Assembly: GCA_030248195.1 (NCBI GenBank)
Contig: JASAND010026017.1
Span: forward strand, 1 to 64,000
DNA length: 64,000 bases
DNA from: Trissonchulus latispiculum
Taxonomy: Eukaryota; Nematoda; Enoplea; Enoplida; Ironidae
Direction of reading: 5' to 3'
Within the stretch, counting starts at the first letter, position 1; each line of letters begins with the position of its first letter. Below are positions 13,879 through 63,131 of this stretch, piece by piece. Made by a program: the position numbers and the translations under genes. The notes below the pieces were generated by a model, which worked only from the letters and a program-made list of their open reading frames with translations, did no database searches and was not told the origin of the DNA.

Positions 13879-13880
13879 AA

Positions 13881-14802: not shown

Positions 14803-14835
14803 AATAAATAAATAAAGAAACATAGCCATAACAAA

Positions 14836-14870: not shown

Positions 14871-14880
14871 AATAATAAAT

Positions 14881-34044: not shown

Positions 34045-34341
34045 AAAGCAAATAGGAGTAAAAAAGGTAGGCTAGGCTCTATCACAACGTAAAATACCCA
34101 AGTACAGTCTGGACAGTAACCAAAGGACCGGAATAGGTAGATAAAAATCCAGTAATCAAACGCAGAAATAAGACAGGAAAGAAAATTAAGAAAAGGCAAA
34201 TAAAAAACCGCCAGCTGAAGACAGGATAAAACAGGATAGACATGCAGCAAGGTAAAGTATATGATAAAGCAAAACCAGTAAAAGTAGCAAATCAAATATC
34301 TGGCTGAGCTGAACGCATCCATAAGCAATCTAAACAAATAA

Positions 34342-44545: not shown

Positions 44546-45040
44546 GTTTCCTTTCCAACTGTATACTTTAATGCAAGTTGGAACGAGTGCGAAAGTTAGC
44601 AAAACTCAAGTCCCAAGTTACCACAAAAAGGAGCAAGGCAAGGTAGGCAACAGCTGGTAAAAGCTTATGTCCAATCATCAGTAGCCTGGTTCCTGGGTCT
44701 GCTGCCCAACCTAAGTTGACTGACTCTCCTATTTATAGTATTCCTCGAACAATCTAATCTAAAGGACTGTCATCTTTTGGAAGACAACATTGCCATCCCA
44801 AACCAACAATACTACAAAAAAGGTAGGGAAAAGTCGCAAGCATACATTAACACAGGGTCCGATTCTGGGGGGTCTACCCCGACCTCGGCGAGGGGTTCTC
44901 CTCTGAAATTAGCAAAAATTGCGAATTTTTAACGTTTTTGACCAAAAATTAGTCAAGAATAACAATTGTCTGCGATTTTTAAGAAATGTTTTGAAAAAAT
45001 CGCCAAACTTTGCTAAAAAAATTAAATATTTGTGGTAAAA
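44546..45040. other. Intergenic sequence
   Basis: No gene recognised. GGGGTCTACCCC at about 44870 anticipates the minisatellite motif. Confidence 0.5.
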
Positions 45041-45044
45041 ATCG

Positions 45045-45360
45045 CTGAGGGGTCTACCGTTTATTCCTTTCTGGACGAGAGGGTCTGCCGTTTTTTCTTT
45101 TTCGCTGAGGGGGTCTACCGTTTATTCCTTTCTGGACGAGAGGGTCTGCCCTTTTTTCCTTTTCGCTGAGGGGTCTACCGTTTATTCCTTTCTGGACGAG
45201 AGGGTCTGCCCTTTTTTCCTTTTCGCTGAGGGGTCTACCCTTTATTCCTTTCTGGACGAGAGGGTCTGCCCTTTTTTCCTTTTCGCTGAGGGGTCTACCC
45301 TTTATTCCTTTCTGGACGAGAGGGTCTGCCCTTTTTTCCTTTTCGCTGAGTAGGTCTTCC
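45045..45360. repeat. 60-bp minisatellite, about five copies
   Basis: The unit begins GAGGGGTCTACCGTTTATTC and continues through CTTTCTGGACGAGAGGGTCT and a T-run to TTTTCGCT. Copies are nearly identical at 60-bp steps. Because 60 is a multiple of three, the minus strand stays open and would give a 20-residue repeat (KRADPLVQKGIKGRPLSEKE). Translation is not supported. Confidence 0.92.
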
Positions 45361-46462
45361 CGTTTTTTGTTGGTCTGGGGGAATCTGCACACCCCATTCC
45401 ACCCCACGTTATCCTATGGTTGCAAGGTTAAATTGGAATCCGGATAACCTCTCGCAGAACAACACTGATTTCAGAAACTTCTTGTACTTTAGTGATCTGG
45501 CTTTCCATGTCATGAGTTATAATAGAAACCTAAATCAACCATTTTTACCTTAAAGGAACCAACAAACTAACAAATTAACTGGTAAACATCATATGCCCAG
45601 CCATGTCTAACAAGTTATTGCTGTCTTCGATTTCGGTACCTATCATGTTTATCACAAAACTTGTGCTTGTTAATAATTAATCTCTGCTCAGATTCTACCT
45701 AATCCCCGTGCCTGTGTCTGGCAGGTCATGCGTTGCTTACATGTGCCGCTATTTCTTGTTTCTAATCCTTTGGGAGAACCCTCTCTGAACCTTCTTCGCT
45801 TTCCCGACAACCCCTTACTAGGTTATATTTCGTAGAAACTTAATCCTTATACTTAAAACTTAAAGACCAATAATGAAACGTTTTGAGTTTTACCTAAATT
45901 GCGCGTATGTATATATTTTTCTAGGCATATCTTTAAAATGCTTCGACAAGTATACTTCCTACATACTACTTTAAAGACTTATACACTACTTTAAAGAAAC
46001 TAGTAATCTGCAAGTTTTGTATTAAGAATTGCATGTGTTCACAAAACACAAAGGGTAGTTTCAGCTGTCGAATAAATCACGCAATATTTCCTAAAGTTTA
46101 TGATTAATGAGAAAAACATTTTTATCTCATGTTTGGAAAATACTTCCGACGGAGACTCGAGACTTCATTAGTAATAATAGGATATGACCAGGAAGCAGCA
46201 TCGTTAGTGCCGAGACAAAGACACGAAATTGCTCTCACAGGAAAGGGCGTGTCCAAAAAATTATTATTATCCCTTTGGAGGAGAACCTCAATTCGTTAAA
46301 CCAAAATCGGATGTTAAGGATCTTTTGCGCTTTCCCCCAGCCCTAACTTTTGATTTTTTGACCAATAACTATGTAACGGATCAAGGTTGGCATGGTCAAC
46401 CTTTCCGTTGCTGGCGGTTGTAGCTAGGCTAGCTACCCGCTTGGCTTCCTATAACATCATCA
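45361..46462. other. Intergenic sequence before the LTR element
   Basis: No gene recognised. It contains the second copy of a dispersed repeat at about 46095-46200. Confidence 0.5.
46095..46200. repeat. Dispersed repeat, copy 2
   Basis: Matches about 19345-19460 (ATGATTAATGAG, CTTCCGACGGAGA, TTCATTAGT). Confidence 0.6.
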
Positions 46463-47126
46463 TGTGGGCTGGGACACGTTTGCAAGTCACGTAGCTCCCC
46501 CAACGTGTATGCGTGGGATTGGGTGGGTTCCCCCCTCGTGACTTTGGGAGCTACGTGATTTGGGGGAAATTCTCACTAGGGGGCGCTCGTGGGAGGGTCC
46601 AACCCATACACTCGCTCCCCTATTCATTCTTGTATTATTCTGCCGTTGTGTACAGTTGTGTTTACTCTGCTATTCTCCCCCCTTATTTGCTGTGTATATT
46701 ATTGTGTCTCTCCCTCAGCTCTCCCCAGAGCTTGGTACGTTGGCTGACCCCCGTCAGCCCGCTGTAACTGTAAGTCTAGTATTTTGTGTGTTTGTTTGTG
46801 TGTGCTTGAGGGTTCAACCCAGTATTTTATTATTGTATTGTTATAATTACTATAACTTGTTGTTTTGTTCTTTATTAAAGTGTATTTAGTTAGGTTTGAG
46901 TCTTTCTGAGCTCCTGCTAGGTAGGTAGTTACATCTTGAGTGAGTGAGAGTGCGAGTCATCTCGCCCTTAGGATCGGACTATTTACTGCGTATATTGTCT
47001 GGCGAGGCTGTCCCGACCGTCTCCTGTAGTCGGTCTGTTATCCATCTGTGCCACGGTCTCCGCGTCCGCTACGTCAGGGCGTGGTAACGGTGTTAGTACG
47101 TAGGTTAAACTACTAGCCCCGCTACA
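46463..47126 (+). mobile_element. Putative 5' LTR
   Basis: The segment begins TGTGGGCTGGG, ends CCGCTACA (TG...CA) and lies before the leader. It has an ATTAAA polyadenylation-like signal near 46875. The partner LTR is outside the window, so the limits are a guess, and no primer-binding site was matched to a tRNA with confidence. Confidence 0.35.
46487..46558. repeat. 13-bp perfect inverted repeat in the putative LTR
   Basis: TCACGTAGCTCCC at 46487-46499 and GGGAGCTACGTGA at 46546-46558. Possibly a U3 regulatory dyad; unproven. Confidence 0.6.
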
Positions 47127-47744
47127 TTAGGCTGCCAGGAGCTCAGGGATTTCTTGCCTGAACCCCTTCGTAAAATTTTTCAAATTTTTATTTATTTTTG
47201 TCTTAGTTTCGTTGGGGTTCCCCCCGTAGTTCTTCGCGTTCAGCGCACGAATTTTTTTTCCAATTTTCTTAGGTCAGGTAAACCCCCCCTCTAGGGTCAA
47301 AAAATCGGAAAATTTTTTTCTCTAGGGTCTGACTGTTTGTATACGTGTATAACTGTGTACCTGGTTCTCCCCCACATTAGGCTCTAATATAGCATTTATT
47401 TTTGGGGTGAGTTAGTCTAAGGCTATTTTTGGGATTTGAGTTAGGAATTTTTACCAAAATTCGTACCTAATTAACAAATAATTTTGTTGTGATCATTTTT
47501 GTTTGTGTTGGTGATTTTGCTTGTCTAATCCCCTTCATTTTAGGTTAATTTTGGTAATTGTTTCTTTTTCAGGTCAAAAATAGTAATTTTGTACCACAAT
47601 TTATATCAATTTGTTGTATTTTGTGTCACTGTTTATATACGTATACATTAGTATTTTTCTGGGGTACCTAAGAATATTTTTGGGTTGTACTAATTGTCAT
47701 TTTCAAAAAGACCTTTTAGGAAAAGAAGAGAGTGCAACTCAAAT
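47127..47744 (+). other. Retrotransposon 5' leader with a possible intron
   Basis: No ORF. It contains the donor-like CAG|GTAAAC (GT at 47278-47279) and a strong acceptor-like TTTCTTTTTCAG (AG at 47571-47572). Splicing between them, or from this donor to the acceptor before ORF3, is plausible inference. Confidence 0.45.
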
Positions 47745-50216
47745 ATGGACCAAAAGCGCGCAAGCTTACGCTTGAAAGAACGGGAACTACGTCACCAACC
47801 TTATTCGGTGACTGGACATCGTGGAGACTCCCATTTGGACTGTATGGGATGTCGGCCCTCCACGTCGAGAGCGAATTCTGGGTCGTTCGACGACCGGGAA
47901 CCGGTGCAGAGGATGCGCCCCCGGTCCAGTTCTGCCACGACAGCGGATCTGAGAAGAAAAAAGAGTGGCTGGGCATCGGGGACTGCTCGGAAAAGCAGTG
48001 CCCCTACTCTGGATCCAGGAATCTCCAGTTCTCTGACCACATTATCTGAGCCGGAATCATCAGGAGTGGGTCCGTCATCGGACTCGGCATTTGTGACAGC
48101 AGCATCAAGCCTGGTTTCTTTGGATGACAACCATTCTGATGGTCTAACTGCTCAGACACGAAGCTTCAATGACGAACTGAATAGGACATTGAGCTGGAAA
48201 GAACTTGGATTTGATCAGAGGGACTCTCCTCAGAGTTCTGAGTCGAGTCCCGGGGACCAGACCGTCATCGGTCTTGAGGAGCGCATGGACCTGGGTTCGT
48301 CCCCGGACCGTGGGCAGGCTCTACAAGAATCTGATGATGATATGACGGCCCTGGGAGCTGCGGCGATGCCTGGATTGCCACCTTTGGACGACCTGGTCAA
48401 TTCTGTGTACCAGAATCTCGGAATTGATCTGGAACGCGAGTTCTCGCTTGGAACGGCGGCACTAAATAATTGGGCCATGGATTCGGCAGCACAGCATAGG
48501 CTGTCCTGGGACCCATCCTTTGATGTTGGGACCCAGGCTTTGGCTTCACCGTCTCATCAGCCCAGTCCATCACGGAGCTCCGCGGGTGTCATCACCCCTG
48601 TAGCAGTGAACCAAGGAATGGAACAGCAAGTTGTGGTGCCTCAGCCCTCACAAACGACAGCCAGGGGACAGATGGGCCCAGCCCAACGCCCTGAGGGAGC
48701 AGTCGTGATCACATTGAACACGACCGTCGTGAATAACCAGATTTTGCGACCGGACCTTTGGTCAACCCCATCACAAACCTCATCACCGGTGACCAGAAGA
48801 CCAAATATCTTGCGACCATCGGTTCGTGGTGGACGGACCGGTCATCGGGTTCATGCTGGTGGTCGGACTTTGATGTCGTCAATTCCGGAAACCAGTCCAG
48901 CTGATCATTTGGGACCAATGGAACCATCAACCAGTCATCAGCCATCACAGGAACAGCCGGTTCGTCCGACTGTCACCCCACCGCGACGACCATCGTCCGG
49001 TGGGTCGGTCAACATGGTCAGAATGACGCCTCAACAAGTGCAGATGTTGAATGACTACACCAAGTGGTTCAAGTCGATCTCCAAGTTCAAGGGCCGGAAA
49101 GGAGCCATCAAATTGTCAACATGGCTGAAGATGTTTGAGTCAACTTGGGAGGCAAGTGGAGCCGAGCTTGACCTCAAACGGCCATTGTTGTGGTATCTGC
49201 TTGATGATGTGGTCAAGCAAGACTTGGAAGGTCAGACCATGGGAACTTACGAGGAGTTGGTGTCCATTCTTCATCAGCTGTATGAGCCGGTCACCAAATC
49301 GGCCGACAAATATGCTCGGGAATTCTTCGAACGGAAACAACTCGCATCGGAATCGAGCCTGGATTATCTCAACGAGCTGAGGTCCCTCGCCTGCAAAGCT
49401 TTTCCGACGGCCGAGCTGAAGGAACGAGAGCTAAAGGTCGTAGAGCGGGCCTCTAGAGGACTCAAAGCGGCATTGCGAGCAAAGGTCGCGAGTTTGTTCG
49501 CTGATGCCGAGAATTGGGACCATCGCAGGCCGAACGATATCTTCATGCGAGCCGTGCGTATTTTGGAAGCGGTCGAGGATGGTGACACTCAATCAAAGCC
49601 AATGGAGACCATCTGTAGCGTTGGTGATGGTGAGAGGGTTCAGCCCATTGATCAGCAGGAATGTCCAGCGTACGTACGCGAACTCAAACGTGAGCTTCAG
49701 GACATCAGGAACTCGATCGTCCAAGGCCAGGCAATGGCAACAGGTCAACAATCCTGGGACGACGAAGTGGTCGCAGCCTGTGAGATATTGGACGATCCGA
49801 ACATGCAAGACTTGGACCCGGAGGAAGTCTGTTTTCTGGTGGAGCAACAGGCGAACACTGGAAACTCAGGAAAGGCATCTTCTAGTCAGGATAGGTCCAA
49901 TCGTTGTACCTACTGCGCGGAACCTGGTCACAGGTGGGCACATTGTCCGGTGTATAATAAGAACATCACCTTCTGGGGTGACGACCCACTTTGGCTCAGA
50001 ATGGTCAACAGCAGGTTCTTCGGATGCTTGCTGAAACAGAAGGACGATGGCACTGGTCAATTTGAAGTGAAACGCCCGTCCGGCGGTGGTGGTGCAACGC
50101 GTGGTTCGGGTCGCTTCCTGTCATCAGGTCGCGGCGGTGGTGGGTTCAGGAAAAGAGGTGGTGGTGGTGGAAGCAATGCTGGTCAACGAACTGGTGGCAA
50201 TTCGGGAAACGAATGA
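47745..50216 (+). CDS. gag: Gag polyprotein of the Gypsy-type element
   Basis: 823 residues from the ATG at 47745; the frame extends upstream but without an ATG. The first 400 or so residues are Ser/Pro-rich and look disordered. A retrotransposon-gag (capsid) like region covers roughly residues 430-620 (YTKWFKSISKFKG, LSTWLKMFESTWEA, YAREFFERKQ and SLDYLNELRSLA). A single CCHC knuckle, CTYCAEPGHRWAHC, lies at 721-734. The C-terminus is a Gly/Arg-rich RGG-like tail. It should form the particle and bind RNA. Its stop overlaps the pol start as ATGA. Confidence 0.88.
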   Translation: MDQKRASLRLKERELRHQPYSVTGHRGDSHLDCMGCRPSTSRANSGSFDDREPVQRMRPRSSSATTADLRRKKSGWASGTARKSSAPTLDPGISSSLTTLSEPESSGVGPSSDSAFVTAASSLVSLDDNHSDGLTAQTRSFNDELNRTLSWKELGFDQRDSPQSSESSPGDQTVIGLEERMDLGSSPDRGQALQESDDDMTALGAAAMPGLPPLDDLVNSVYQNLGIDLEREFSLGTAALNNWAMDSAAQHRLSWDPSFDVGTQALASPSHQPSPSRSSAGVITPVAVNQGMEQQVVVPQPSQTTARGQMGPAQRPEGAVVITLNTTVVNNQILRPDLWSTPSQTSSPVTRRPNILRPSVRGGRTGHRVHAGGRTLMSSIPETSPADHLGPMEPSTSHQPSQEQPVRPTVTPPRRPSSGGSVNMVRMTPQQVQMLNDYTKWFKSISKFKGRKGAIKLSTWLKMFESTWEASGAELDLKRPLLWYLLDDVVKQDLEGQTMGTYEELVSILHQLYEPVTKSADKYAREFFERKQLASESSLDYLNELRSLACKAFPTAELKERELKVVERASRGLKAALRAKVASLFADAENWDHRRPNDIFMRAVRILEAVEDGDTQSKPMETICSVGDGERVQPIDQQECPAYVRELKRELQDIRNSIVQGQAMATGQQSWDDEVVAACEILDDPNMQDLDPEEVCFLVEQQANTGNSGKASSSQDRSNRCTYCAEPGHRWAHCPVYNKNITFWGDDPLWLRMVNSRFFGCLLKQKDDGTGQFEVKRPSGGGGATRGSGRFLSSGRGGGGFRKRGGGGGSNAGQRTGGNSGNE
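50213..50216 (+). promoter_or_regulatory. ATGA stop-start overlap of gag and pol
   Basis: GAA TGA ends gag, while ATG ATG GGG starts pol, sharing ATGA. This suggests termination-reinitiation or frameshifting for pol. Metazoan Gypsy elements more often use frameshifting or a fused frame. Confidence 0.7.
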
Positions 50217-53200
50217 TGGGGGAGCGGACCCCCGCCAAAAAACCGCAGGCCGGTCATGTTAGCATGATTAGGAGGCCACCCGACCACAGGGGTCACGATT
50301 TCCCGAACCGTGGATCATGGGGATCCCAGGTCGACCATTGGGTCCGACCAGTCAGCCAGTTCCGTCACTCAGGTCATGTCAATATGTTACGATATCAGCA
50401 TATTGGGACGCTTTCCGATGAGGAATTGCATACACCGCGTTGGAAATGCATTGAAGGATACCCCGAAGCTAAGTGCTTCCATATGGCTTGTGTCTTGCAT
50501 AATGGACGGAAGCAGGATCGCCATTCGGTCGGGGTCTTCCCCAGAAGACTTCACTTGCCTCAGCGGCAAGACCAGGTTCCTCTGAGACCTCAGGAACATC
50601 CGGATTCTGGGCAATCTCAGGAACCTCGGGGACCGAAAAAGCCGAAAAAGCCCAAGAAGCCCAACAAAAATGGCAAGAAGAAGAAGGGCAAAGCTCAGTC
50701 ACAGGATGGGTCTGTTTGTCAGGAATCGGATTCGGAACAGTCACCCATGAATTCGGTGGCAACACAAGCTGTCACGGTCAAGGACGGCTTGTCTCTTCAG
50801 GAGGCTGCATCAAAGGATTGCAATCCGGAACCAAGTTCACCGGATGCTCGTGCTTCGAACTCGAGTTCAACTCGGGTTTCTAGCACGAGCCCCGGGGACG
50901 GCCCTCGTGATCAGCCTACGTCGTCATCGACGTCTGCTACTGCCAAAAAGACCGAGAACGCGAACTTGGATGCTCCAGCTATTCCGAAATTGAAACTCCA
51001 GCGGTCAGCCGGTGATACCTGGCACACTCCACGTAAAGCCGCGAACCGGACCTCCACCAAAGGTCAGGATGATATTCCGACGTTCAATAGGTTTGATCCG
51101 TTGGATTTGTCCAAGGTAGACGCGGACATGTTGGAGGCATACTGGACTCGACTGACCAAAGCACAAGACGCCTGGAGCCAAGAGGAGGATAAACTGGGGA
51201 AAATGGAGGGTGCCGTTCAACGGCAGTCCCCCAAAACGAAGGCAGCAGCGAAGACAGTCGTAGACAACATGGAGGATTTCGAGGAGGTTCTGAGTGCCTT
51301 CGTGAAGAAATTCCGTCAGGAGGACACCGCCAATGTGGTCGAAATGGTGTCCAAGGCCACCGAACCTGATGACGACATGGCTCGTCCCTCGACTTCGGGT
51401 CATCCCGAAGACGAGGATGACCATGACGGATCGACCAAAAAGGACATCCGTGAAGCTGTTCGACAGGTCATGAACGGCGAGGCGGTCTATTTTGCGAATT
51501 CAGTGGCTTCCATCTCGCTACGTCACTCGCCATATGTCCTTTTCCGGATTAATGAAGTCACTGCCCTGGGTCTGGTGGACACCGGCGCTTCTGTCTCATT
51601 GATCTCAAAGGAGTTCTATGACAGGGTCAAGCATCACGCATTGACGCCTATGACAGCAGCGGAGATGCCTAGCATTTCGGCAGCCGGAGAGGGAAACAAA
51701 TTGACGATCCTTGGTCAATGCAAACTAACGATACGGTTTTGTCAAACGCAAGGACAGATGGCAGAAAGTACAACTTACAGGTTTTATGTGGTTCCGGAGT
51801 TACAACAGGAAATGCTGATAGGGTATGACTTCCTGTATGATATGGGCTATAGCATTCATCCTGGTGGTGGTTTCATGTCCAGCTACTATGGAAGAGTGCT
51901 CTTTCTGAATTCAGCTGAACTGCAGGGGATATCGGTGGTGTATAATATCCCAATGGCTGCAGCGGTCAACTTGTGTATCAGGGAAAGGGTCAGAGTGCTC
52001 CCTGGTCGAGAAAAGGATGTTCCGGTAAAGGCTACGATGGCAGGAGGCCTAGCCGTACCGAAGAGCCAGTTCATGCTGTTTGAAGCGAACCCGGAGGCTA
52101 TTGAAACATATGGAGTGTTTCCTCAGGCTGGTGTCCTGACTGTGACGCCAAAGGTCACCTACATTCGTGTCTACAATGGAGGAGACCAAATTGTTGACCT
52201 CCCTAAAGGAATGGTTATGGGAGAGGCCTGTCCAGCAGTCCAGGTTCGCGAGGCGGAACGGCCAACATCCTACGTAATGGAGGCAGGGGTCGATTTGCAG
52301 ACCATCCATTACAATCTCAATAGATGGTTCGGTCATCCGGCCACCTATTCGCTATGGGCGGAACAGGTTGGTGAAAGTGTAAGCAAGTTACACAGGATGT
52401 TTCCAGGGTTCTATCCATTGGATTTACCACTACAACCATCTATGGAACAAGCTGACGCAGTCGTGGTTCAGCGGCCCAAATCGCCAGTAACTTATGCGGT
52501 CCAGGAACCCAAACATAGAACCGAGATCCATAAGTCAACTGATCCTGATGCGGATAAGGATCGGGAAATGCCTTCAGAGACGACCACTGGTGGACATTTC
52601 TACTCTGCTGAGGATCGGGAGCCACGTCCTGAACCTACAGAGCAGGAAAAACTGGAGGATATTGAGGCCAATGTAGATTTTGATAAGATGGATTGCTCGG
52701 ACGACATCAAAGCGGAGTTCAAGAAGATGCTCTTGGAATACTACGACGTAGTGGCCCGGCCAGGTAATCCTGGTCGGACCAAAATAGATCAGCATCTGAT
52801 TGACACAGGCAAGGATGGACCTCTGAAGAGCCGTGCCTATCGTATGAATCCGAAGCAGAAGGCTGAGGTCGAGAAGCACATAAACTCCATGCTCAAGGAA
52901 GGGGTATGCGAACCCTCGACAAGTCCGTGGTCTTTTCCCTGCATTCTGGTTGGAAAGAAAGATGGTTCAACCAGATTGGTCATTGACTACCGCAGGCTGA
53001 ATAAGATCACCAAGAAGGACAACTACCCACTGCCAAAGATTGATGAGATCATGGACCAGCTCAAGGGTAGTGCAATCTTTTCAACGATAGATTTAGCAGC
53101 TGGTTATTGGCAGGTCGAGGTATACCCTGAGCATCGGGAGAAGACAGCGTTCGTGTCTCACATGGGACTGTTCCACATGAACGTCATGCCTTTTGGGCTG

Positions 53201-55519
53201 TGCAATGCGCCAGCCACCTTCCAGAGGATCATGGAAAAGGTTTTGACCGGATTGCCTGTCTACATTGATGATGTCCTGATTCCATCACAATCCTTCAGTG
53301 AGCATCTGAAAATGCTCAAGGTCGTCTTCCAGAAGTTGCGTGATAATGGACTACGGATCAAACTGAAGAAATGTGTCTTCATCCGCAAGAAAGTCCCTTT
53401 CTTAGGGCATCTGATCAGTCAGGAGGGCTACGAGGTAGATCCTGACAAGGTAGCTGCAGTGGCCAAGCTACCTAATCCTGTTGATTGCCGTGGCGTCAAG
53501 GCGTTCCTCGGAATGTCTGGATACTATCGGAGGTTTGTGCCCAACTATGCCAAGGTGGCAGCACCGCTCATTGAACTGCTCAAAAAGGATGCCGTCTTCG
53601 AGTGGACCGAAGCTAGACAACGGGCGTTCGACGCATTGAAGAAAGTTCTGACCGAAGCTCCGGTGTTGGCTTATCCGGATTTCGACAAGATTTTCATTTT
53701 GTCGGTGGATGCGAGCCATCATGGCTTGGGAGCGGTCCTCGAACAGCCCGTGTCGATTCCTCGCAGTCCGAAGAAACCGGGCGAGGCATGGACGGTAAAG
53801 ACACGTCCAGTGGCGTATGCCAGTCGTACACTCACGGTGTACGAGAGGAATTATTCGGCCACAGATCTCGAAGGAGCAGGAGTGGTTTGGGCATGTCAGA
53901 AGTTTCGCCACTATCTGACGACAAGAGCTTTCATCATCAGAACGGATCATATGGCAGTTAAGGACCTCCTTAACAACAGATCAGTGCTGGGAGCTGGAAG
54001 ACAGGCAAGATTTGCCTTGCGCCTGCAGGAGTTCGATTTCATAGTGGATTATCGACCAGGCCGTGACAATGTCGTTCCGGACGCTTTGTCACGTCTTCCA
54101 GGCTATGACCGTCCAACGGAAATGGAAATGGATGGGACGGAAGTCATGTACCCGCCAGAAATCTGTGCCATTGGTGATGATGTGCTCACCTCCGCCGAGT
54201 GGAAACGCGCGCTGCGCAAGGATCCGGAATTCAAGCCCATGGTGGACTTGATTGAACGGAAATTCCTGCCGGATGATGACCAGGAAGCTGCTCTGCTGCA
54301 GAAACTCCGGCCGTACTTCTTCATACAGGACGGGCTCCTGTTTGTTTGGCACGTGGACGAGAGAGGTCGAAGAAGAGGTGACGCATTCAAGTCGATCGCC
54401 GTGCCTTACGATTACCGCGAGGTGATCATGGAAGAAGTACACACGAGCTTCATGGTTGGTGGTCATCGCAGCCATAAAGCTTGCTACGCGAGCCTCGTGT
54501 CACGGTATTATTGGCCGACCATGGCACAGGACCTCGCTGATTACATCAGAACTTGCAAGGTCTGTGCAAAGTTCAATAAAGGCCCGGCCAGGCCTCAAGC
54601 TGGATTGCAAAATGAAGTCCGTGCCAACAGACCTCTGGATTTGGTCAGTCTGGATGTGATGCATTGCACGAAGAACCGGACCCTTCGAGGCAATACCTGT
54701 ATTTTGGTCGTCATCGACCATTTTACACGGTATGCGGAGGCTTTTGCCATGCCCGACGAGAAGGCAGAAACGACGGCCTACTACTATTTCAACGGATTCG
54801 TCGCTCGTTGGGGAGTTCCAGTGCATTTGCTGTCGGACCGTGGACCAAATTTCATGTCAAAGCTGTTCACGAAACTGACCGAGCTTAGTGGATCTAAACT
54901 TCAGCGGACAACGGCTTACCATCCGCAAGCAAATGGAGTGGTGGAAAGAATGAACAAGACTCTCCGGACCATCTTCATGAAGTATGCGGATATCTACCAA
55001 ACGGATTGGGATGACTATGTGAACTGGGCGCTTTGCGCATATAGGAATTCAGTTCATAGTTCAGTGGGTGACACGCCTCATTTCCTGATGACTGGACACG
55101 ACATCCGGTTGCCTTTGGATCATTTCTTCGATGGTAGAAATGATGAGGTGGTGGAGAATTATGATTCGTACTCACAATCCCATCTGTTCCGGTTGGAGCG
55201 AGCTTGGAAGGCCGCTCGTGAGTCGTTGGAAGCGTCATCGCTGAAGAATAGGAAGAATTTCGACAAGAAGGTCAAGGAGGTCCACTATAAGCGCGGGATG
55301 CTGGTGATGCGCAAAGTTACAGGAGTAACTCCTTCCGGTATGTGTGCCAAGATGAGACCAAAATGGGAAGGACCTTACCGGATAGTGGAGAAGATGTCGG
55401 AAGTCAACTTCCGAATCCAGAAAGTTGGAACACAGGACAAGCCGGATGTGGTTCACATCGAGAAGATCAAGCCATATCATGAACGGCCAGTCAAAGTTCC
55501 AACCCAGCCGTTACATTAA
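50213..55519 (+). CDS. pol: Pol polyprotein: protease, RT, RNase H, integrase
   Basis: 1768 residues from an ATG that overlaps the gag stop by four bases, in the -1 frame relative to gag. The first 430 residues are a Lys/Pro/Ser-rich extension of unknown role, with a PKKPKKPKKP tract. The aspartic protease has VDTGASVSLIS (D456). The RT has LVIDYRRLNKITKKDNYPLP, STIDLAAGYWQ, MPFGLCNAPATFQ and YIDD at 1017-1020. RNase H has LSVDASHHGLGAVL (D1166), the YSATDLEG motif and RTDH. Integrase has an HHCC zinc finger (H1410, H1418, C1448, C1451) and a DDE core D1481, D1542, E1578 with the usual 35-residue spacing. A GPY/F-type WEGPYRI lies near the C-terminus. All catalytic residues are present. No chromodomain is evident. 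Confidence 0.95.
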   Translation: MMGERTPAKKPQAGHVSMIRRPPDHRGHDFPNRGSWGSQVDHWVRPVSQFRHSGHVNMLRYQHIGTLSDEELHTPRWKCIEGYPEAKCFHMACVLHNGRKQDRHSVGVFPRRLHLPQRQDQVPLRPQEHPDSGQSQEPRGPKKPKKPKKPNKNGKKKKGKAQSQDGSVCQESDSEQSPMNSVATQAVTVKDGLSLQEAASKDCNPEPSSPDARASNSSSTRVSSTSPGDGPRDQPTSSSTSATAKKTENANLDAPAIPKLKLQRSAGDTWHTPRKAANRTSTKGQDDIPTFNRFDPLDLSKVDADMLEAYWTRLTKAQDAWSQEEDKLGKMEGAVQRQSPKTKAAAKTVVDNMEDFEEVLSAFVKKFRQEDTANVVEMVSKATEPDDDMARPSTSGHPEDEDDHDGSTKKDIREAVRQVMNGEAVYFANSVASISLRHSPYVLFRINEVTALGLVDTGASVSLISKEFYDRVKHHALTPMTAAEMPSISAAGEGNKLTILGQCKLTIRFCQTQGQMAESTTYRFYVVPELQQEMLIGYDFLYDMGYSIHPGGGFMSSYYGRVLFLNSAELQGISVVYNIPMAAAVNLCIRERVRVLPGREKDVPVKATMAGGLAVPKSQFMLFEANPEAIETYGVFPQAGVLTVTPKVTYIRVYNGGDQIVDLPKGMVMGEACPAVQVREAERPTSYVMEAGVDLQTIHYNLNRWFGHPATYSLWAEQVGESVSKLHRMFPGFYPLDLPLQPSMEQADAVVVQRPKSPVTYAVQEPKHRTEIHKSTDPDADKDREMPSETTTGGHFYSAEDREPRPEPTEQEKLEDIEANVDFDKMDCSDDIKAEFKKMLLEYYDVVARPGNPGRTKIDQHLIDTGKDGPLKSRAYRMNPKQKAEVEKHINSMLKEGVCEPSTSPWSFPCILVGKKDGSTRLVIDYRRLNKITKKDNYPLPKIDEIMDQLKGSAIFSTIDLAAGYWQVEVYPEHREKTAFVSHMGLFHMNVMPFGLCNAPATFQRIMEKVLTGLPVYIDDVLIPSQSFSEHLKMLKVVFQKLRDNGLRIKLKKCVFIRKKVPFLGHLISQEGYEVDPDKVAAVAKLPNPVDCRGVKAFLGMSGYYRRFVPNYAKVAAPLIELLKKDAVFEWTEARQRAFDALKKVLTEAPVLAYPDFDKIFILSVDASHHGLGAVLEQPVSIPRSPKKPGEAWTVKTRPVAYASRTLTVYERNYSATDLEGAGVVWACQKFRHYLTTRAFIIRTDHMAVKDLLNNRSVLGAGRQARFALRLQEFDFIVDYRPGRDNVVPDALSRLPGYDRPTEMEMDGTEVMYPPEICAIGDDVLTSAEWKRALRKDPEFKPMVDLIERKFLPDDDQEAALLQKLRPYFFIQDGLLFVWHVDERGRRRGDAFKSIAVPYDYREVIMEEVHTSFMVGGHRSHKACYASLVSRYYWPTMAQDLADYIRTCKVCAKFNKGPARPQAGLQNEVRANRPLDLVSLDVMHCTKNRTLRGNTCILVVIDHFTRYAEAFAMPDEKAETTAYYYFNGFVARWGVPVHLLSDRGPNFMSKLFTKLTELSGSKLQRTTAYHPQANGVVERMNKTLRTIFMKYADIYQTDWDDYVNWALCAYRNSVHSSVGDTPHFLMTGHDIRLPLDHFFDGRNDEVVENYDSYSQSHLFRLERAWKAARESLEASSLKNRKNFDKKVKEVHYKRGMLVMRKVTGVTPSGMCAKMRPKWEGPYRIVEKMSEVNFRIQKVGTQDKPDVVHIEKIKPYHERPVKVPTQPLH

Positions 55520-56153
55520 GCCTTGGTATGGTCCAAGAAGGGTAGGTCATCCTACCATCAGGTTGGTCAGGATGGAAATCAACATGCTGTGGTTAAAACC
55601 ATCATGGGAGATTTGAACTGTATACTGGTGATGTTTTGTAGGGAATGTATGTTGGTTATATACGTATGTTTGTTGTGAGATTAGCTACCTTATAACATTC
55701 ATAAAGGTTATCGTATGTATGTGCACTGGCCTTATGGGGCCCCACTTTGTAGGCCGGTCACGCCAACGTACCAATAACATCACTGGGGGGATAAAATTTT
55801 TATGTTTTGGCACTTTTTGGGTCAAGTTTTTCTTTTTGTGGGGGTTAATTTTTCATTGTTGGGAGGGTTTTGATTCATTACCTTTTCAACAATTTCTCTT
55901 AGATTTCTTTTAATTTAATTTCCAATTAATCCCCGAATTTAAACTTTTCCTAAGAATCTAATTACTTTAATTTTTATCTCAATACAAAATTTTCCCTATT
56001 CCTTGGGTGGGTGGTCCCTTACCGCAAAATTTGGGTTATTTGTTGCATGTTGAACCTACACCTTTTTGCTTCTTGTTTCAGCTGGTAGTATTCTAGTAGT
56101 CGCCATCTGGATCAAATTATTCTGTATTTTTGTGCATATCTGGAGAAGTCACC
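55520..56153 (+). other. Gap between pol and ORF3 with a strong splice acceptor
   Basis: No ORF. It ends with a pyrimidine-rich tract and TTCTTGTTTCAG (AG at 56080-56081), 72 bp before the ORF3 ATG. This resembles the acceptor used for spliced env-type messages in retroviruses and errantiviruses. Confidence 0.6.
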
Positions 56154-59100
56154 ATGCATTTACAGTTCAGGAAGAAAAAGCAGAAGGACGGACACGATCC
56201 TATGGTTGGTGAGGGTGCAGCCCAAGCCCAGGCGCCGGACACCGAGGATTTGGAGCAGTTTCCCCCTCCAGAGGAGCCCAAATCCGTGGTCGAGGACTTG
56301 GGATCTGACCACCCCATGGGACAGCATCCAGTTGTACCCCCTTGTGTGTCCGAGACATTCCAGGTGCCCGCATCGTCAGCGAGCCCATTATCGGAACTGT
56401 TCGAACAATTGGATCCCGCACCATATCAGGACTCGGACTCGTACAGTGCCGTGGTCGCCTCGGACGAAAATCGGATGGGCACGGGTCGTTCCAGCGTGTC
56501 ATCACGTCTGGGAGGCCAACCGGAAGCCCCGTCCCCAGTGGGTTCATCTAACCCCGGGCAGATGGATCCTCAGTCTTTGCCTGAGGTCTCTGGTGAGCCT
56601 ACAGAGTTCAGCTCTGTTGGCCACGACCCAGCGACTGCAGCGCGGGACTGCCCGGCCACGACGACAGGCCACCGTACAGACCATGGACGCCAGGTCCCTA
56701 TCCCAACTGGCAAGCCCGAACATCAGAATCCTGTCGGTCCGACGTCCCAGGGAACCAAGCGGTCGGCAGTTGCTGCCAGTGGCGACGCTGATGAAGATTC
56801 GGACACTCGGACCTCGGCTCCCAACGGGAAGAAGCCATGTGCTTTAGCCAGAAGGAGCAGTCCACCATCTACTTGTTCCACGACCGCGCCTGGAACAAGT
56901 CAAGACACTACCCCCCTTAATCCAGGGATTGGATCAAATCTGTCCCTCAAGGACATTGAGGCACAGATGGCTTTCCTGCAAAGCCAGAAGAAACTGGTCT
57001 TACAGAAGCTCCATGGCCAGTCAACAGTTTCTCAGGACACTGCTTCTTCAGTTGCCGAGTCATCTCGGTCAACTTCTAATAAATCTAAGACTAAGAAGAG
57101 GAACCGTGGTGGTTCTCGGAAGAACTCTAGTGGTGCCCAGTCAGCTCAATCTGCTACGGAAACTGATGAGCCCTCGCGGAAACCATCAAAGCAAAGCAAA
57201 CGTTCTGCAGCGAAACAGCAAAAGGCGGGGCCGTCATCGGCCGAACCCGTCGTGGTGGACCTGGACACCGACCAACCACCACAGGCTAGCGATTCTACCC
57301 TGCAGAAGGCCTCCATGGGTGAAGTGGCCGATGCTCAATTGAAAGCCGGTCAGCTCGTGGTCCTGGAGGAGGTCAATGAAGACACCGATGGCTCATTGGC
57401 AAAAGTGGCAGGAGCGTGCGACGCATCATCGCCACGGTTAGCGGCAGGAATGGACGACGTTGCTCAGAGCGTCCCTATGGTCCTCGAAGGACATGAGCAT
57501 GTCCTGCCGAACTATCCTCACATTGTCCTGATGACACCACAGGAGAGGGCCACCGCCCTCAGCTATGAAATTCCATCACGAGAGGAGATTGAGGCGGTTC
57601 CTGGTAATCTACAAGAAAGAGCCAAGGAACACCTCTCTGGCATCGCGACCTATGAGCACTATCTGAAGCTGGTGCTACAGAACAGGGAGAATGAGTACGA
57701 CACTCAACATCCAGAAGCCTGCCTTACTGAAGCCATTTGTGACGTTCAGGCGATTTCTAACCCGGAGAAAGATTTTCAGTTCAGCGAAGACCATCTATCT
57801 TTGCCGGACAATTTCCAACCTTTACGGTTAATCAGAACCCTCCAGGGTCTCTTTGATGCGATTCCGGACATCCTGGAAACGTATCAGTCGACTGGCGTCA
57901 TCGCCATGGATATTGAAGGCGGCTCGTACACTCAGTTCGGCAATAAACAGGATGCCGCTATCACCATCATTCAGATCGCTGGACCAGTTCCTTCACGACA
58001 TCCGAAGGTCTTTATGATTATGGTCAGCGAAATCCTGGCATCACTGTCGGACTACTATGCGGTCCTCTATGCTCTGAAGATCATTCTTCATCCACCAGAG
58101 CCGGTCTATATGGTATTTGCTGGTGGTCAGGCCGACTTCCTACGTCTGGCCAAATTCTGTGGTCTCACTGGCATGGAGAACTATGCTGCCGAACTTGGAG
58201 CGATCATCGCCCAGTCTGTACCTTATATACAGGCTAGACGACGACAAGATCCGACGGTTCCTGAGGTCCCTTGGGAAAATATCACCGACACGACCAAGGA
58301 ATCGTACGTCAACACTCATCACTCCCTGAGCAAGGTCTGCGAATACTGCGATGTCCCATCTCCTAAAGGACTGCGACCGTTGGACTTTCATGGGTGTTTG
58401 GTCTGGCCCACCGTAGAGGAAGCAACGTATGCCCTCGCTGACATTTTGGCCATCTATGCCTGCTTGGTCAAGGTCGCTAATGCCTTGCCCTCTGATGAGT
58501 GGATCCAGGTGATCTACCTAAGCAGTGCACGATACACCTTTTCACCCAGCCTATGGCCGAAGATCAACAAGGAAGCCGAACTGGGTGTTGGCCCAATTGC
58601 CCAGGCCAGAATGTTCACCCCTGGGAAGTATGCGGCTTCGCAGATCCTCCATGACCGTCAGATGGAATGCCGACGGAACTTGACTATCAAACGGGGATCA
58701 GTGAAGTACCTGAAAGGGAGCTTCGCTTGGTCATTGTCTGTCCACGAAGAGGAGGGTGGTAATGCTACCCACCCCCTACGAGAGGTTTCCTGGGTGCCCC
58801 TGATGGAGTTGCTGACCAACTTCTACGATCTGAAGTTCATGACCAAACGGCGACGCGATGAGGGTCTGGACTTCAACTGGTATGCGATCGTCGCAAACCG
58901 CCACCATCACGCGGATCCAAATGACACTCCGACAAACCTACCACCTGATAAGGCCCATCGTTTCCTGCGAAAGGACGACCAACCATCAGATGAGGAGTCT
59001 GGGTGGTCACCCACCCCTCCTAACGAGCAGACGCAGGCCGACGAACCGGAATCATTGGCGGAAGCACGAAAGGCTGCCCAGAAACGGGAAAAGGAGACGA

Positions 59101-62100
59101 AGTTACCGCCCTTGCCGAAGAAGCTTCCACCATTGACCCACTATAAGGAAGGCACTGGTGATCCGAGGAAGAAGGAGAAGCCTCCGGTGACCTACTCTGG
59201 CGGTCACCGCTATGTGGAGGATCGTCCAACATATCAGACGGCTGGGTCATCCCAGCCGGCCCAAACTGCGGTCACCACGAGCCCACGCAAAACGCGGTCA
59301 TCTGCTCGTCAGCAGGAAGCTGAGAAACTGGCCAAAGAAACCGAAGAACCGGAGGTCATTCAGGTGTCCGACGAAGAATACGCGGCGGATGAAGAGCAGC
59401 CATCAGAATCGGTCGGGCGTCGTGAACCGACACCTACGGACGAAGACGCCCAACGTCAACAGGGCACTTTTCAACCGACCCTTCTGGAGGCCTGTGCACC
59501 CAGGCTGACGATGGCCAACCCAGCCCTCCAATCCGGTTGGCATCCACCTATGACGAACGAACAGCGGGCTCGTCTAGCCTCGCTGGCATCAGGGATCAGG
59601 GTTCCCCGTACGTCCGGTTCGTCCGTGACATCGTCAGGGGCCCCTCAGGCAGTGGACGAGATCCTGACCCAGCACGGAGACATTCCACACGTATCGTATC
59701 AGGAGGCCAGACGGTTTCTGGTCTCTTGTAGCGAACGCCCTGGTGGTGTAACGGGCCCATCCACCTACCTTCCGGACCTTTATCACTGGAAGTTGGAACA
59801 GCCCGTGATCATCAGCCAGTTGGCCACGTCGACGGACCCGTCATCAGGGGTTCAGTCGTCTGTCAACGTCTCCATTGCGAGGGTTCAGCCCTATATCCAG
59901 ATCCTGGTGCCCGAATCAATTCTGACTCTGAACGCCCTATTTCGAGACTCACCCATTGGCGTTGATCAGCCTAAACGCCATATCTACGTGGTGGGACCCC
60001 CTGCGGACCCCGAAATGCCAGGGTACGATCCTGAGAACTTTTTCCGGATGGTGGCTCAGGGTAACCCGGTGTTCTGGGAGGTTTATCGGGAGGTTCCCAC
60101 GGATGGCTCGGGCCCTCCTTTGCGGTGGTCCGATCTGGTCATCCTGTATCGGAAACGGGACGGTGGTGCTATGGCCCATGGGATCCTGCCCTACATTAAC
60201 ACCTTGAACTCTTTGGGTGTCGGGGACACTAACTTTTCTGTGGTTATGGGCCCGATGTTCCTGGAAAAGGAGCAGAAGTCGGAGCTCATGCAGGTAATGC
60301 AGTTGGCGGAACTGCAGGGACTTAATCCGGTCGTGGTCATGCGGGAGCATGAGGGACTGTGCAAACGGCCTGGTCACTTCGACATCGGACTCACGGCCGT
60401 GACCCAACCGGCTCCGGACCCGTCCGCCTTTGTGGTTCCTGAACCCCGCCCAACTGGAAATGTGATGATGGGTCCGTCCGTCATCCAAACTTTGATGGGA
60501 ACGGCGGTCCCGTCCACACCTGCGGCACCCACGGCTCCCGCGACACGATTCGGCTCGAAACTGCGTCGGGTCGAATCATCCCAGGGCGATACGACCAGCG
60601 TCATCGCTTGGTCAGCACCAAAAACCCCGTTGGTTGGAGCGGAGGCAGCGAGACCTGGTATCTCTGCCTCTCAGTCTGACGTTTTCGGCGGTGTTTCTGG
60701 TTCGGGACGAGGCCGTGGCTTTCGTCCTTTCGGATCCGATTCGGATTCATCAACGGCAACCGCTTTCACGACTCGCTCAACACCTGTGAGTCTCCGTCAA
60801 CGATCCGGCACACCTGGTCGGGTGGCCTATGTCCCTCTGGAGGAACCACCTCTGGATTCCCCAGCCCATGACCAGTGGGAGGCCGTCTATCGCGGTCAAC
60901 GGGACACTCAACCGTCAACATCACGTCAACAGCGGTCGCCTCGTCGGGAGACTTCTCGTCCTCCCGCCTCCATCGAACCTCGTGATCGTGACTATTCGCG
61001 GTCACACCGTCGTGAACCTTCGACTGATCGTCATCGTCAGCGTTCGTCATCCCGTCGTCGGGATTCCCGTCCATCGTCACGAGCGTCTCGTGGCCAGCGG
61101 CCGGAATCTCGCGATGACCGTGGCCAGCGTCCGTCAACGAGCCATCACGAGCGTCAACCAGCCCGTGAACGATCACCATCAGCTCGTCGTCGTGACCAGG
61201 ACCGTCATCGGCAACCATCACGGGATCGTCGTTCGGACGAGCGTCAGCGATCGACCGAGCGTCGGCAGGAGTCTCGCGATCATCGCGCTGACCGTCGACC
61301 TCCAACCTATCCGAAGGCTCAGCATCACGTAGAGTCTCGACAGAATCGCGACAAACGTCTAGCGGCCGACGCTTTAAGCCGACAACGACCACAGAAGTCG
61401 ACTTATAGCGTGCCACGTGTGAAAACTATCAAGAAACCTGATGGTCGGAACTCTGCTATTCGGGAACTTCCACCCGAGTATCCCAATAACTATACGAGGG
61501 ACACTTTTCCGCCATTCCGGGTTTACTTGGTCAATGTCCTTTGTGACATGCTCAATCAGGACATTGCGCGGTCGGTTTCTCGGGGAACTGAGGACCCGAT
61601 CTACGACGAATTCAAGATCGAGCAGCCCACACCGGCTGAAGTCGCTGAGATCAAAATAGACCGTTGGCCCGACGACCCGATTGTTTATTGTCGGGATAAC
61701 AACCTCCAGTGGATCCCACACAATGTCCCTGGAGATCCATCTGAGAAGAAGCTCCATCCTTGGGTGGCCTTGTTTCGCGACGAGGTCCTCAAGTGGATGC
61801 AGGCCAACGCCCACGATTCCCAGCGGTTCCCATCGGACTTTATGGACACCATCTGGCAACGGATGTGTGCTCGCGACAGCCAGCTGACGAATCACATGAC
61901 GGCAGATCCGCAGCCTGAACAGACCGGCGGTCGGACTGTTTGGCACTCGCGATGGGTCATCAAGGACTACCGTGATCGTCACGGGAAGCTGTTCAAGGGC
62001 TTTCCCGTCAACCGCGTTTCGTCGAATGCACGATGGGCCAACTGCTTGGCCATGGCAGCGCTGGTGCCCGAACTCTTTCGGTACCCGCACCTGATTCGGC

Positions 62101-63131
62101 GATACGAGTCCCAGCATTTCTACGTGACCCATATGCACGCTCGGCGTCTTCGGACCCGCTGCATGACGGTCCGTCAGGCCATGCTCGGATATCATCGGCC
62201 CAACGTCGAGGGCATTGCCAACGTGGACGAAGGCTATTTCCTGTGCTTCTACCTGGGGCCGGACTATGCCTTCTCTTTCATGCATAACCATCTGCCGCAT
62301 GTGTCGTTGCCGGTGGAGCAGCTCGAAAACCAGGGTTTCCAGACCAAGGAACACCTGTATCAGGGGCGAAAGGGCTGGTTTTGCCAGTCCGACGTCGTCA
62401 TGGACCTCGTGAGGGAGCATCCCCATCAGGATGGCTTTGCTATCAAGCGTAGCACCGATCAAGCCATCGCTGCGCTGCCCGCTTGTCGCATAGAGCGCTG
62501 GCAGTCGGGTCCTGATCAGCTCACCCAGCGGCTGATCATTTTCCACACGTTCTATCAGTCTGTGGAAATGCAGGAGTTCCTGGTCCAGACCATCGGAAGC
62601 TATTACGGGAAGGCTTCCACGGATCCTTGGTGGGGTCTTGGTGTCCGGGTTCCTCGTGGTTTCAAACCCGACGATCTGACTTTTAACGGGAAATATAATT
62701 TCCTGTTCAATACGGACAATTGGAACGGGCGAAACATCCAAGGGTCTTTGTACACCGAAGTGGGCCTTTGGTTCATGCAGGCGGGCCCTGATGAGCTTTG
62801 GGAGGACAGGTTTGACCGTGTCCCATTGAAAGACGCTCGTCTTGAGGCCTACCTCAATGTCGTTCGAAAGCGCATAGATGCGGCGGCCGAGCGCTATAAT
62901 CGTGGTCAGCCCGCACCTCCGTTCTTTCGACAGGACGCACCGGCGGCCCTGCGAAAGCAGCCGATTGACCTGCCACCCAATTGGACCGGTGTCCACATCG
63001 CCGGGTGCGCTCCGCCAGGACAGGAGAAGAACATCTTCTATCCGTGCTTCGCCCTGACCATTTGGAATCCGTTGGAACCCCATCCAAATGACCACCACAG
63101 GTCCACAGAACTGATCATGCGGGAATATTGA
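56154..63131 (+). CDS. Giant ORF3: exonuclease-like, RS-rich and NADAR domains
   Basis: 2325 residues from the ATG at 56154, which has a good context (GTCACCATGC). Residues 1-480 are Ser/Pro-rich with a basic KSKTKKRNRGGSRKN stretch that could be nuclear targeting. Residues about 560-790 fit a DEDDy 3'-5' exonuclease: MDIEG (D586, E588), VFAGGQADFLRL (D661) and YALAD (Y759, D763). A globular region at about 1187-1415 is unrecognised. An Arg/Ser-rich tract spans about 1580-1730. The C-terminal part, about 2035-2210, matches NADAR: F.TKEHLYQGRK (E2066, H2067), ERW, FYQSVEMQEFL, D2157..WWGLG and NGRNIQGSLYTEV (N2194, G2197). No signal peptide or membrane span is seen, so it is not an envelope protein despite its env-like position. 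A role in genome processing or defence evasion is inference. Confidence 0.85.
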   Translation: MHLQFRKKKQKDGHDPMVGEGAAQAQAPDTEDLEQFPPPEEPKSVVEDLGSDHPMGQHPVVPPCVSETFQVPASSASPLSELFEQLDPAPYQDSDSYSAVVASDENRMGTGRSSVSSRLGGQPEAPSPVGSSNPGQMDPQSLPEVSGEPTEFSSVGHDPATAARDCPATTTGHRTDHGRQVPIPTGKPEHQNPVGPTSQGTKRSAVAASGDADEDSDTRTSAPNGKKPCALARRSSPPSTCSTTAPGTSQDTTPLNPGIGSNLSLKDIEAQMAFLQSQKKLVLQKLHGQSTVSQDTASSVAESSRSTSNKSKTKKRNRGGSRKNSSGAQSAQSATETDEPSRKPSKQSKRSAAKQQKAGPSSAEPVVVDLDTDQPPQASDSTLQKASMGEVADAQLKAGQLVVLEEVNEDTDGSLAKVAGACDASSPRLAAGMDDVAQSVPMVLEGHEHVLPNYPHIVLMTPQERATALSYEIPSREEIEAVPGNLQERAKEHLSGIATYEHYLKLVLQNRENEYDTQHPEACLTEAICDVQAISNPEKDFQFSEDHLSLPDNFQPLRLIRTLQGLFDAIPDILETYQSTGVIAMDIEGGSYTQFGNKQDAAITIIQIAGPVPSRHPKVFMIMVSEILASLSDYYAVLYALKIILHPPEPVYMVFAGGQADFLRLAKFCGLTGMENYAAELGAIIAQSVPYIQARRRQDPTVPEVPWENITDTTKESYVNTHHSLSKVCEYCDVPSPKGLRPLDFHGCLVWPTVEEATYALADILAIYACLVKVANALPSDEWIQVIYLSSARYTFSPSLWPKINKEAELGVGPIAQARMFTPGKYAASQILHDRQMECRRNLTIKRGSVKYLKGSFAWSLSVHEEEGGNATHPLREVSWVPLMELLTNFYDLKFMTKRRRDEGLDFNWYAIVANRHHHADPNDTPTNLPPDKAHRFLRKDDQPSDEESGWSPTPPNEQTQADEPESLAEARKAAQKREKETKLPPLPKKLPPLTHYKEGTGDPRKKEKPPVTYSGGHRYVEDRPTYQTAGSSQPAQTAVTTSPRKTRSSARQQEAEKLAKETEEPEVIQVSDEEYAADEEQPSESVGRREPTPTDEDAQRQQGTFQPTLLEACAPRLTMANPALQSGWHPPMTNEQRARLASLASGIRVPRTSGSSVTSSGAPQAVDEILTQHGDIPHVSYQEARRFLVSCSERPGGVTGPSTYLPDLYHWKLEQPVIISQLATSTDPSSGVQSSVNVSIARVQPYIQILVPESILTLNALFRDSPIGVDQPKRHIYVVGPPADPEMPGYDPENFFRMVAQGNPVFWEVYREVPTDGSGPPLRWSDLVILYRKRDGGAMAHGILPYINTLNSLGVGDTNFSVVMGPMFLEKEQKSELMQVMQLAELQGLNPVVVMREHEGLCKRPGHFDIGLTAVTQPAPDPSAFVVPEPRPTGNVMMGPSVIQTLMGTAVPSTPAAPTAPATRFGSKLRRVESSQGDTTSVIAWSAPKTPLVGAEAARPGISASQSDVFGGVSGSGRGRGFRPFGSDSDSSTATAFTTRSTPVSLRQRSGTPGRVAYVPLEEPPLDSPAHDQWEAVYRGQRDTQPSTSRQQRSPRRETSRPPASIEPRDRDYSRSHRREPSTDRHRQRSSSRRRDSRPSSRASRGQRPESRDDRGQRPSTSHHERQPARERSPSARRRDQDRHRQPSRDRRSDERQRSTERRQESRDHRADRRPPTYPKAQHHVESRQNRDKRLAADALSRQRPQKSTYSVPRVKTIKKPDGRNSAIRELPPEYPNNYTRDTFPPFRVYLVNVLCDMLNQDIARSVSRGTEDPIYDEFKIEQPTPAEVAEIKIDRWPDDPIVYCRDNNLQWIPHNVPGDPSEKKLHPWVALFRDEVLKWMQANAHDSQRFPSDFMDTIWQRMCARDSQLTNHMTADPQPEQTGGRTVWHSRWVIKDYRDRHGKLFKGFPVNRVSSNARWANCLAMAALVPELFRYPHLIRRYESQHFYVTHMHARRLRTRCMTVRQAMLGYHRPNVEGIANVDEGYFLCFYLGPDYAFSFMHNHLPHVSLPVEQLENQGFQTKEHLYQGRKGWFCQSDVVMDLVREHPHQDGFAIKRSTDQAIAALPACRIERWQSGPDQLTQRLIIFHTFYQSVEMQEFLVQTIGSYYGKASTDPWWGLGVRVPRGFKPDDLTFNGKYNFLFNTDNWNGRNIQGSLYTEVGLWFMQAGPDELWEDRFDRVPLKDARLEAYLNVVRKRIDAAAERYNRGQPAPPFFRQDAPAALRKQPIDLPPNWTGVHIAGCAPPGQEKNIFYPCFALTIWNPLEPHPNDHHRSTELIMREY

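Follow-up and report, generated by a model that had tools for sequence, protein, structure and literature searches.

A nematode Gypsy retrotransposon whose third open reading frame joins a predicted DEDDy exonuclease to a NADAR domain

A 64,000-nucleotide stretch of the genome of the nematode Trissonchulus latispiculum (positions 1 to 64,000 of contig JASAND010026017.1, assembly GCA_030248195.1; the whole of it is termed 'the window' below) contains a long terminal repeat (LTR) retrotransposon of the Ty3/Gypsy group, whose third open reading frame (ORF3) combines a predicted 3'-5' exonuclease domain of the DEDDy type with a NADAR domain. An earlier annotation, made from the sequence alone (the 'first-pass annotation'), had proposed this combination; it missed that the same pairing recurs, in a compact form, at many further Gypsy-type loci in the genome, and that a long interspersed nuclear element (LINE) in the window also bears a NADAR domain. 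The reading that we favour, and to which we give an even chance of being correct, is that ORF3 serves the element inside the cell, as an accessory protein for nucleic-acid processing rather than as an envelope protein, its two domains together forming a tool against the ADP-ribosylation of bases.

The element is a Ty3/Gypsy retrotransposon by virtue of its LTRs and of a Pol reading frame in which protease, reverse transcriptase, RNase H and integrase follow one another in that order (Pfam RVT_1, 4.5e-32; RT_RNaseH_2, 6.2e-29; Integrase_H2C2, 1.7e-14; rve, 9e-10; the protease match, at 6e-05, is weak and falls under its Pfam cut-off). The ORF ahead of Pol, which has no significant Pfam family, is named gag by position only. 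The two LTRs are 94.9% identical in a blastn alignment of 761 columns (28 mismatches, 11 gap positions), and their locations give an element length of about 19.0 kb. Frame, Pol domain order and LTRs all agree with the earlier placement of the ORF in question as a third ORF in the env position. A clear target-site duplication was not found in the window copy (5' flank ...AACTA, 3' flank ATACA...), which, being a matter of a single copy, has no bearing on the family assignment. The LTRs are about 5% apart, yet none of the copy's three long ORFs is interrupted; given the LTR divergence and the lack of a target-site duplication, it is possibly an inter-element recombinant. No tRNA primer-binding site was recognised by eye downstream of the 5' LTR, and no kinase-like ORF of at least 150 amino acids was found between Pol and ORF3. 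An acceptor-like ttgtttcAG upstream of ORF3, noted by eye, suggests that its message is spliced.

When ORF3 was searched against the assembly (734 Mb in 21,732 contigs), 3,945 first-look candidates were obtained, of which 20, including the window's own copy, were scored. All 20 are free of internal stops and 94-100% identical, and in 19 the match runs to the query's end (the remaining one, C20133, spans query positions 1-2240); the frame is likewise open in the fetched DNA of each of the 15 copies, out of these 20, that were checked. Over all pairs of those 15 copies, the uncorrected ratio of nonsynonymous to synonymous differences (pN/pS) is 0.114 over the whole of ORF3; the exonuclease and NADAR regions have 0.056 and 0.054, respectively, and residues 801-950, 1161-1440 and 1771-2010 have 0.071-0.079. 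It is higher in the N-terminus (0.202) and in the arginine/serine-rich (RS) tract (residues 1441-1770; 0.237), a contrast between regions that is indicative only, given that the copies lack independence and that these two parts also have a lower pS. Open frames and pN/pS together exclude decay or a chance ORF: ORF3 is an intact reading frame under purifying selection. The RS-rich tract remarked on in the first-pass annotation is real.

The exonuclease domain was initially recognised by its motifs, DxE (D586 and E588), GGQAD (D661) and Yx3D (Y759 and D763), which occur in this order, are invariant in the 15 aligned copies, and lie in register with those of the compact relatives described below that match PF01612. 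An RNase H-like exonuclease fold is predicted for the domain from an alignment of the window copies with these compact relatives; on that model, ORF3 has the fold of a DEDDy exonuclease and its full active site, as had been claimed from the motifs. The roles of the five residues are familiar from exonucleases of the Nibbler, WRN, EXD2 and RNase D type. The window domain shares with these enzymes the predicted fold and all five residues; it differs from them in sequence (12-18% identity in structural alignments) and in the NADAR domain and RS tract that ORF3 adds.

Several observations weigh against this assignment. The window exonuclease piece has no relevant sequence match in Pfam, PHROG or the PDB, where phmmer returned weak, unrelated matches only. 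AlphaFold2 run on the element's own copies alone was unsuccessful (predicted local distance difference test score, pLDDT, 33.8), and the successful model depends on alignment with compact relatives that are only 16-20% identical, with a pLDDT above 65 in only the best of five models. Foldseek TM-scores are modest: normalised by query length, the first 16 matches lie at 0.37-0.56 (WRN reaches 0.66 by target length), and the root-mean-square deviation from EXD2 is large. Alignment of the window exonuclease with the compact profile by hhalign gives a probability of 0.7%. The link to the compact family is marginal in direct scoring as well: a four-member compact profile gives the window domain 7.0 bits, which none of 1000 shuffles reaches, and a 15-member profile 3.5 bits, which one of 1000 reaches. 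Of the 15 compact relatives themselves, 11 match PF01612 with E no higher than 1, the best at 1.2e-7.

The NADAR domain is supported by profile. Five pieces of ORF3, two of which overlap or contain the NADAR piece, were scanned by Pfam, and the C-terminal piece matched PF08719 with an E-value of 4.5e-6 and 27.5 bits, below the curated cut-off of 35.1; the family is not listed for the whole of ORF3 at E up to 1. Profiles built from NADARs of this genome give the window domain 9.6 bits (seven members) and 9.0 bits (13 members), scores that no shuffle in 1000 reaches in either case; the hhalign probability, 19.4%, counts against the match. The series E2066...K2073...W2116...D2157..W2160G...G2192-x-N2194-xx-G2197 follows the NADAR pattern, and its eight numbered residues are identical in all 15 aligned copies. 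E2066 and K2073 are spaced as are E43 and K50 of the solved NADAR of the oomycete Phytophthora (PMC11543638), and YbiA-type and DarT-associated NADAR hydrolases share with the window domain the family profile, the pocket E and K, and the D..WG and GxNxxG motifs (PMC11543638, PMC11125620).

The third catalytic position is a different matter, and it bears against hydrolysis by the window protein. This residue is given as E, D or H (PMC11125620) and differs among NADAR subfamilies, and replacement of its structural equivalent in the E. coli C7 protein (D171, corresponding to E125) by A or N abolished efficient de-ADP-ribosylation of guanine (PMC11543638). In the window lineage the column is occupied by K2153 in 15 of 15 copies, in contrast both to the known hydrolases and to the compact lineages, which match them. 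For this reason efficient de-ADP-ribosylation by the window ORF3 appears doubtful, as far as the residues can tell. The first-pass annotation had suggested that the protein trims nucleic-acid ends and reverses a modification: the predicted fold and its residues would allow the first half, and the second is weakened for the window protein by K2153, the sister ORF3s having kept the acid. The comparison with profiles and structures that it had called for thus yields a NADAR profile match (below the curated cut-off) and a predicted DEDD fold, with no direct Pfam or PDB sequence match for the latter.

Other searches with ORF3 returned little. Neither ORF3 nor the compact exonuclease profile found a relative in viral contigs, nor the last 1,843 amino acids one in phage records; the whole protein has no NCBIfam family. 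Residues 1161-1440 and 1771-2010 have no Pfam assignment, and a profile of the compact middle region scores no better there than on shuffles. Two PHROG matches, both at E 0.013, were not used: phrog_1017 (function not known) to the NADAR piece, and phrog_33260 to the piece preceding it.

The compact form of the pairing was sought with the ORF3 of locus L031, a query that gave 1,607 candidates, of which 61 were scored, with 112 matches. Grouped by locus, these matches give 42 loci that carry both domains in one frame of 663-753 amino acids as reported by the search tool, a length that reads through stops between matches; these are counts of loci, not of lineages. Among the 18 of these loci whose DNA was read, 17 have an uninterrupted frame over both domains and C6439 has a break between the two, so that unbroken loci probably number around 40 of the 42. 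Fifteen aligned compact sequences form 10 clusters at a threshold of 70% identity, with 28-64% identity between clusters; two of the 15 (L039 and L048) have a break within the NADAR domain or ahead of it. The D and E of exonuclease motif I and the final D are present in all 15, the D of motif II in 13 and the Y of motif III in 11. The set is complete in 10 sequences and incomplete in five, which implies that exonuclease catalysis is not needed everywhere and so tells against the favoured reading. In the compact NADAR domains, 13 of 14 sequences retain the catalytic E and all 14 the K; each of the 13 that cover the third catalytic position has its acid there, as E. Three loci (L029, L032 and L050) retain the NADAR E, K and E and have lost exonuclease residues; L042 has losses in both domains. 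A double-stranded-RNA-binding-like domain suspected by eye between the two compact domains was rejected, since Pfam found nothing in eight of eight pieces.

The upstream stretches of nine compact loci were read, with integrase ends sought by means of the L029 integrase. A same-strand integrase end directly precedes the compact ORF at L029, L031 and L032, and is followed first by a kinase-like ORF and then by the compact ORF at C12823, C8957 and C11305. At C16016 and C5360 a kinase-like ORF stands before the compact ORF, with no integrase in the stretch fetched, and C6677 has neither in its upstream stretch. At six of nine loci, therefore, the pairing follows an integrase end, in the same domain order as in the window ORF3. 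The window Pol found no match in these short upstream stretches, and a Pfam integrase was confirmed in L029 only. Identity between the L029 integrase and that of the window element is 32%, which marks the two elements as distinct Gypsy lineages. Eight kinase-like ORFs match PF00069 (E 1.7e-15 to 3.8e-24). Such ORFs are seen before or after the compact ORF at L029, L030, L032, L033, L052, L054, L055 and L056.

NADAR domains are numerous in this genome: the Pfam model gave 2,478 first-look candidates, and all 150 that were scored exceed the curated cut-off. Contexts were read at 22 fetched loci (21 places), and include, besides the compact Gypsy-type ORFs, several other settings. At L017-L022 and L028, the NADAR ORF stands beside a TBP-like ORF and an A32-like packaging ATPase ORF (Pfam at L018, the one locus of the group that was checked: TBP, 5.7e-37; Pox_A32, 2.5e-9). 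With a capsid-like ORF noticed by eye in L022, this suggests a Polinton- or virus-like DNA element carrying TBP. L035 encodes a C2H2-finger-NADAR fusion (finger 0.0016, under its Pfam cut-off), and at L036 and L037 the NADAR ORF adjoins a YqaJ-type nuclease ORF (PF09588, 1.1e-9 and 1.2e-6). L038 also shows a C2H2-finger-NADAR ORF by eye, together with an ATPase-like ORF that has no Pfam family at 0.01; the surroundings of both L035 and L038 resemble further mobile elements. In the PDB, both the compact NADARs and others from this genome are matched by 2b3w and 8bau, structures of YbiA-type and DarT-associated hydrolases.

ADP-ribosylation of nucleic acids is a recognised weapon of bacteria. 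Guanosine ADP-ribose in RNA is removed by NADARs (PMC11833690), NADARs of nidoviruses (those of nematodes included) and of other viruses have been proposed to counter ADP-ribosylation (PMC9503650), and the role of animal NADARs is still described as open (PMC11125620). Under the reading that we favour, ORF3 would be translated from a spliced subgenomic RNA; its exonuclease, by analogy with Nibbler, WRN and RNase D, would trim RNA or single-stranded DNA from the 3' end in the element's cycle; and its NADAR domain would recognise ADP-ribosylated guanine in element RNA or complementary DNA (cDNA). Nibbler, WRN and RNase D each trim the 3' ends of their own substrates. Where a compact lineage has retained E, K and E, the NADAR domain would remove the ADP-ribose. 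The pairing of the two domains might serve for counter-defence or for repair when the host ADP-ribosylates bases, aimed at the element's own RNA and cDNA or at host small RNAs. The NADAR of the window lineage, judged by its catalytic residues, has probably lost efficient hydrolysis, and may serve as a reader that directs the exonuclease. That several classes of element in a single genome carry NADAR speaks for a pressure common to them, such as base ADP-ribosylation would supply. A wider proposal, tentative and more apt to fail than to hold, is that base ADP-ribosylation is in this animal a defence against mobile DNA, that Gypsy, LINE and DNA-virus-like elements each carry a NADAR 'eraser' or 'reader', and that Gypsy elements fuse it to a DEDDy exonuclease, often with a kinase-like ORF, as an anti-defence cassette, of which the window ORF3 would be a giant form with a remodelled pocket.

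The alternative that survives best, rather unlikely in our estimate, is a binding or scaffolding protein, whose exonuclease fold and NADAR pocket hold nucleic acid and ADP-ribose without catalysis. It would account for the replaced third NADAR residue and for the five compact sequences that lack at least one exonuclease residue, and Egalitarian and EXD1 are among the folds closest to the predicted model. Egalitarian is a case similar to those of EXD1 and Maelstrom. These last two are catalytically inactive DEDD derivatives that bind RNA (PMC5408684). Such a protein is harder to reconcile with the invariance of all five exonuclease residues in the window lineage, their completeness in most compact sequences, and a catalytic set mostly kept in the compact NADARs. 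Decidedly unlikely is an antagonist of small RNAs, in which the exonuclease would trim or destroy the 3' ends of PIWI-interacting or small interfering RNAs so as to escape silencing, with NADAR secondary. Nibbler and Mut-7 do act on small-RNA 3' ends; the three loci that retain the NADAR residues despite lost exonuclease residues speak against such a division of labour. An env-like protein for cell-to-cell transfer, for which the position of ORF3 is the one argument, is very improbable in view of the predicted enzymatic folds and of a hydropathy profile without a membrane span, the most hydrophobic 19-mer (mean 1.77) sitting within the last helix of the exonuclease domain; the earlier claim of neither signal peptide nor membrane span is borne out for the latter, no signal-peptide program having been applied. 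A chimeric host gene or accidental insertion outside the element, for which no point in favour was found, has practically no chance of being right, given a family-wide ORF3 (20 of 20 scored copies) under purifying selection, its place between Pol and the 3' LTR in the window, and the integrase ends at other loci.

Each domain has been found separately in retroelements. The LTR elements Juno and Vesta of bdelloid rotifers, as well as Athena Penelope-like elements, carry a DEDDy ORF3, and it has been argued that retroelements of different classes exchange ORFs of this kind (PMC5408684). As described, the bdelloid protein is, like the window's, a third ORF of an LTR element, an exonuclease, and without env features; it differs in that its DEDD motif is altered to DEED and that the main text of that paper does not mention NADAR (PMC5408684). 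Among the accessory domains named for LTR elements is a DnaQ-like exonuclease (PMC6338049). NADAR, for its part, is borne by a Gypsy lineage of Ectocarpus and by ORF1 of a Tx1 LINE of oyster, the main text in this case not mentioning an exonuclease (PMC12477816). The combination, of which the first-pass annotation knew no described Gypsy example, is thus partly anticipated as to its parts; for the pairing of both domains in a single retroelement ORF, no paper was found among the matches listed from the open-licence literature (subscription papers and Repbase lay outside the search). The element also shows that enzymatic ORF3s of LTR retrotransposons can be multi-domain modules, and retroelements that repeatedly carry NADAR, with a joined exonuclease, may reflect an arms race over modified nucleic acids, for the testing of which this genome supplies concrete proteins with complete catalytic sets.

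Table 1. Positions in the window of the retrotransposon, its ORF3 domains and the LINE. Residues are numbered from the ATG, unless marked P0001 (numbering of the whole open frame).
Feature	Position	Strand	Remarks
5' LTR (TGTAAC...GCTACA)	46372..47126	+	blastn against contig beyond window; ends read
3' LTR	about 64607-65354		beyond window, same contig; blastn partner of 5' LTR
ORF in gag position	47694..50216	+	stop to stop
pol ORF	50066..55519	+	stop to stop; domains by Pfam
Candidate 3' splice acceptor (AG)	56080..56081	+	by eye, unscored
ORF3	56154..63131	+	2,325 aa from ATG plus stop; frame open 56100-63131, uninterrupted; first ATG 56154
DEDDy-type 3'-5' exonuclease domain (predicted)	57786..58523	+	P0001 563-808 (545-790 from ATG)
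Exonuclease motif I, D586-x-E588	57909..57917	+	identical in 15/15 copies
Exonuclease motif II, D661 (GGQAD)	58134..58136	+	identical in 15/15 copies
Exonuclease motif III, Y759-x3-D763	58428..58442	+	identical in 15/15 copies
RS-rich tract, residues 1588-1737	60915..61364	+	47% R+S, richest 150 aa
NADAR domain	62205..62969	+	PF08719; P0001 2036-2290 (profile match about 2073-2221)
E2066 and K2073	62349..62372	+	equivalents of catalytic E and K in solved NADARs; 15/15 copies
K2153	62610..62612	+	column of third catalytic acid (E/D/H), from profile alignment
LINE with NADAR in ORF1	29927-34071	-	PF08719 1.2e-15, above curated cut-off; ORF2 endonuclease and reverse transcriptase

The LINE of the window also has, by eye, a Cys/His-rich N-terminus and CCHC-like knuckles in its ORF1, and an apparent histidine at the third catalytic place of its NADAR domain, like phage NADARs. 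A kinship of this ORF1 to the C-terminus of ORF3 was considered and dropped, BLASTP showing no real similarity. Elsewhere in the window, an ORF on the minus strand at 26166-26993 matches the chemoreceptor family 7TM_GPCR_Srsx (3.1e-8), in itself a weak hint of a nematode host; positions 4000-15000 are densely filled with related repeats, each a few hundred bases long, in many partly rearranged copies; and a tandem repeat with a 60-base period and about six copies lies at 44989-45409.
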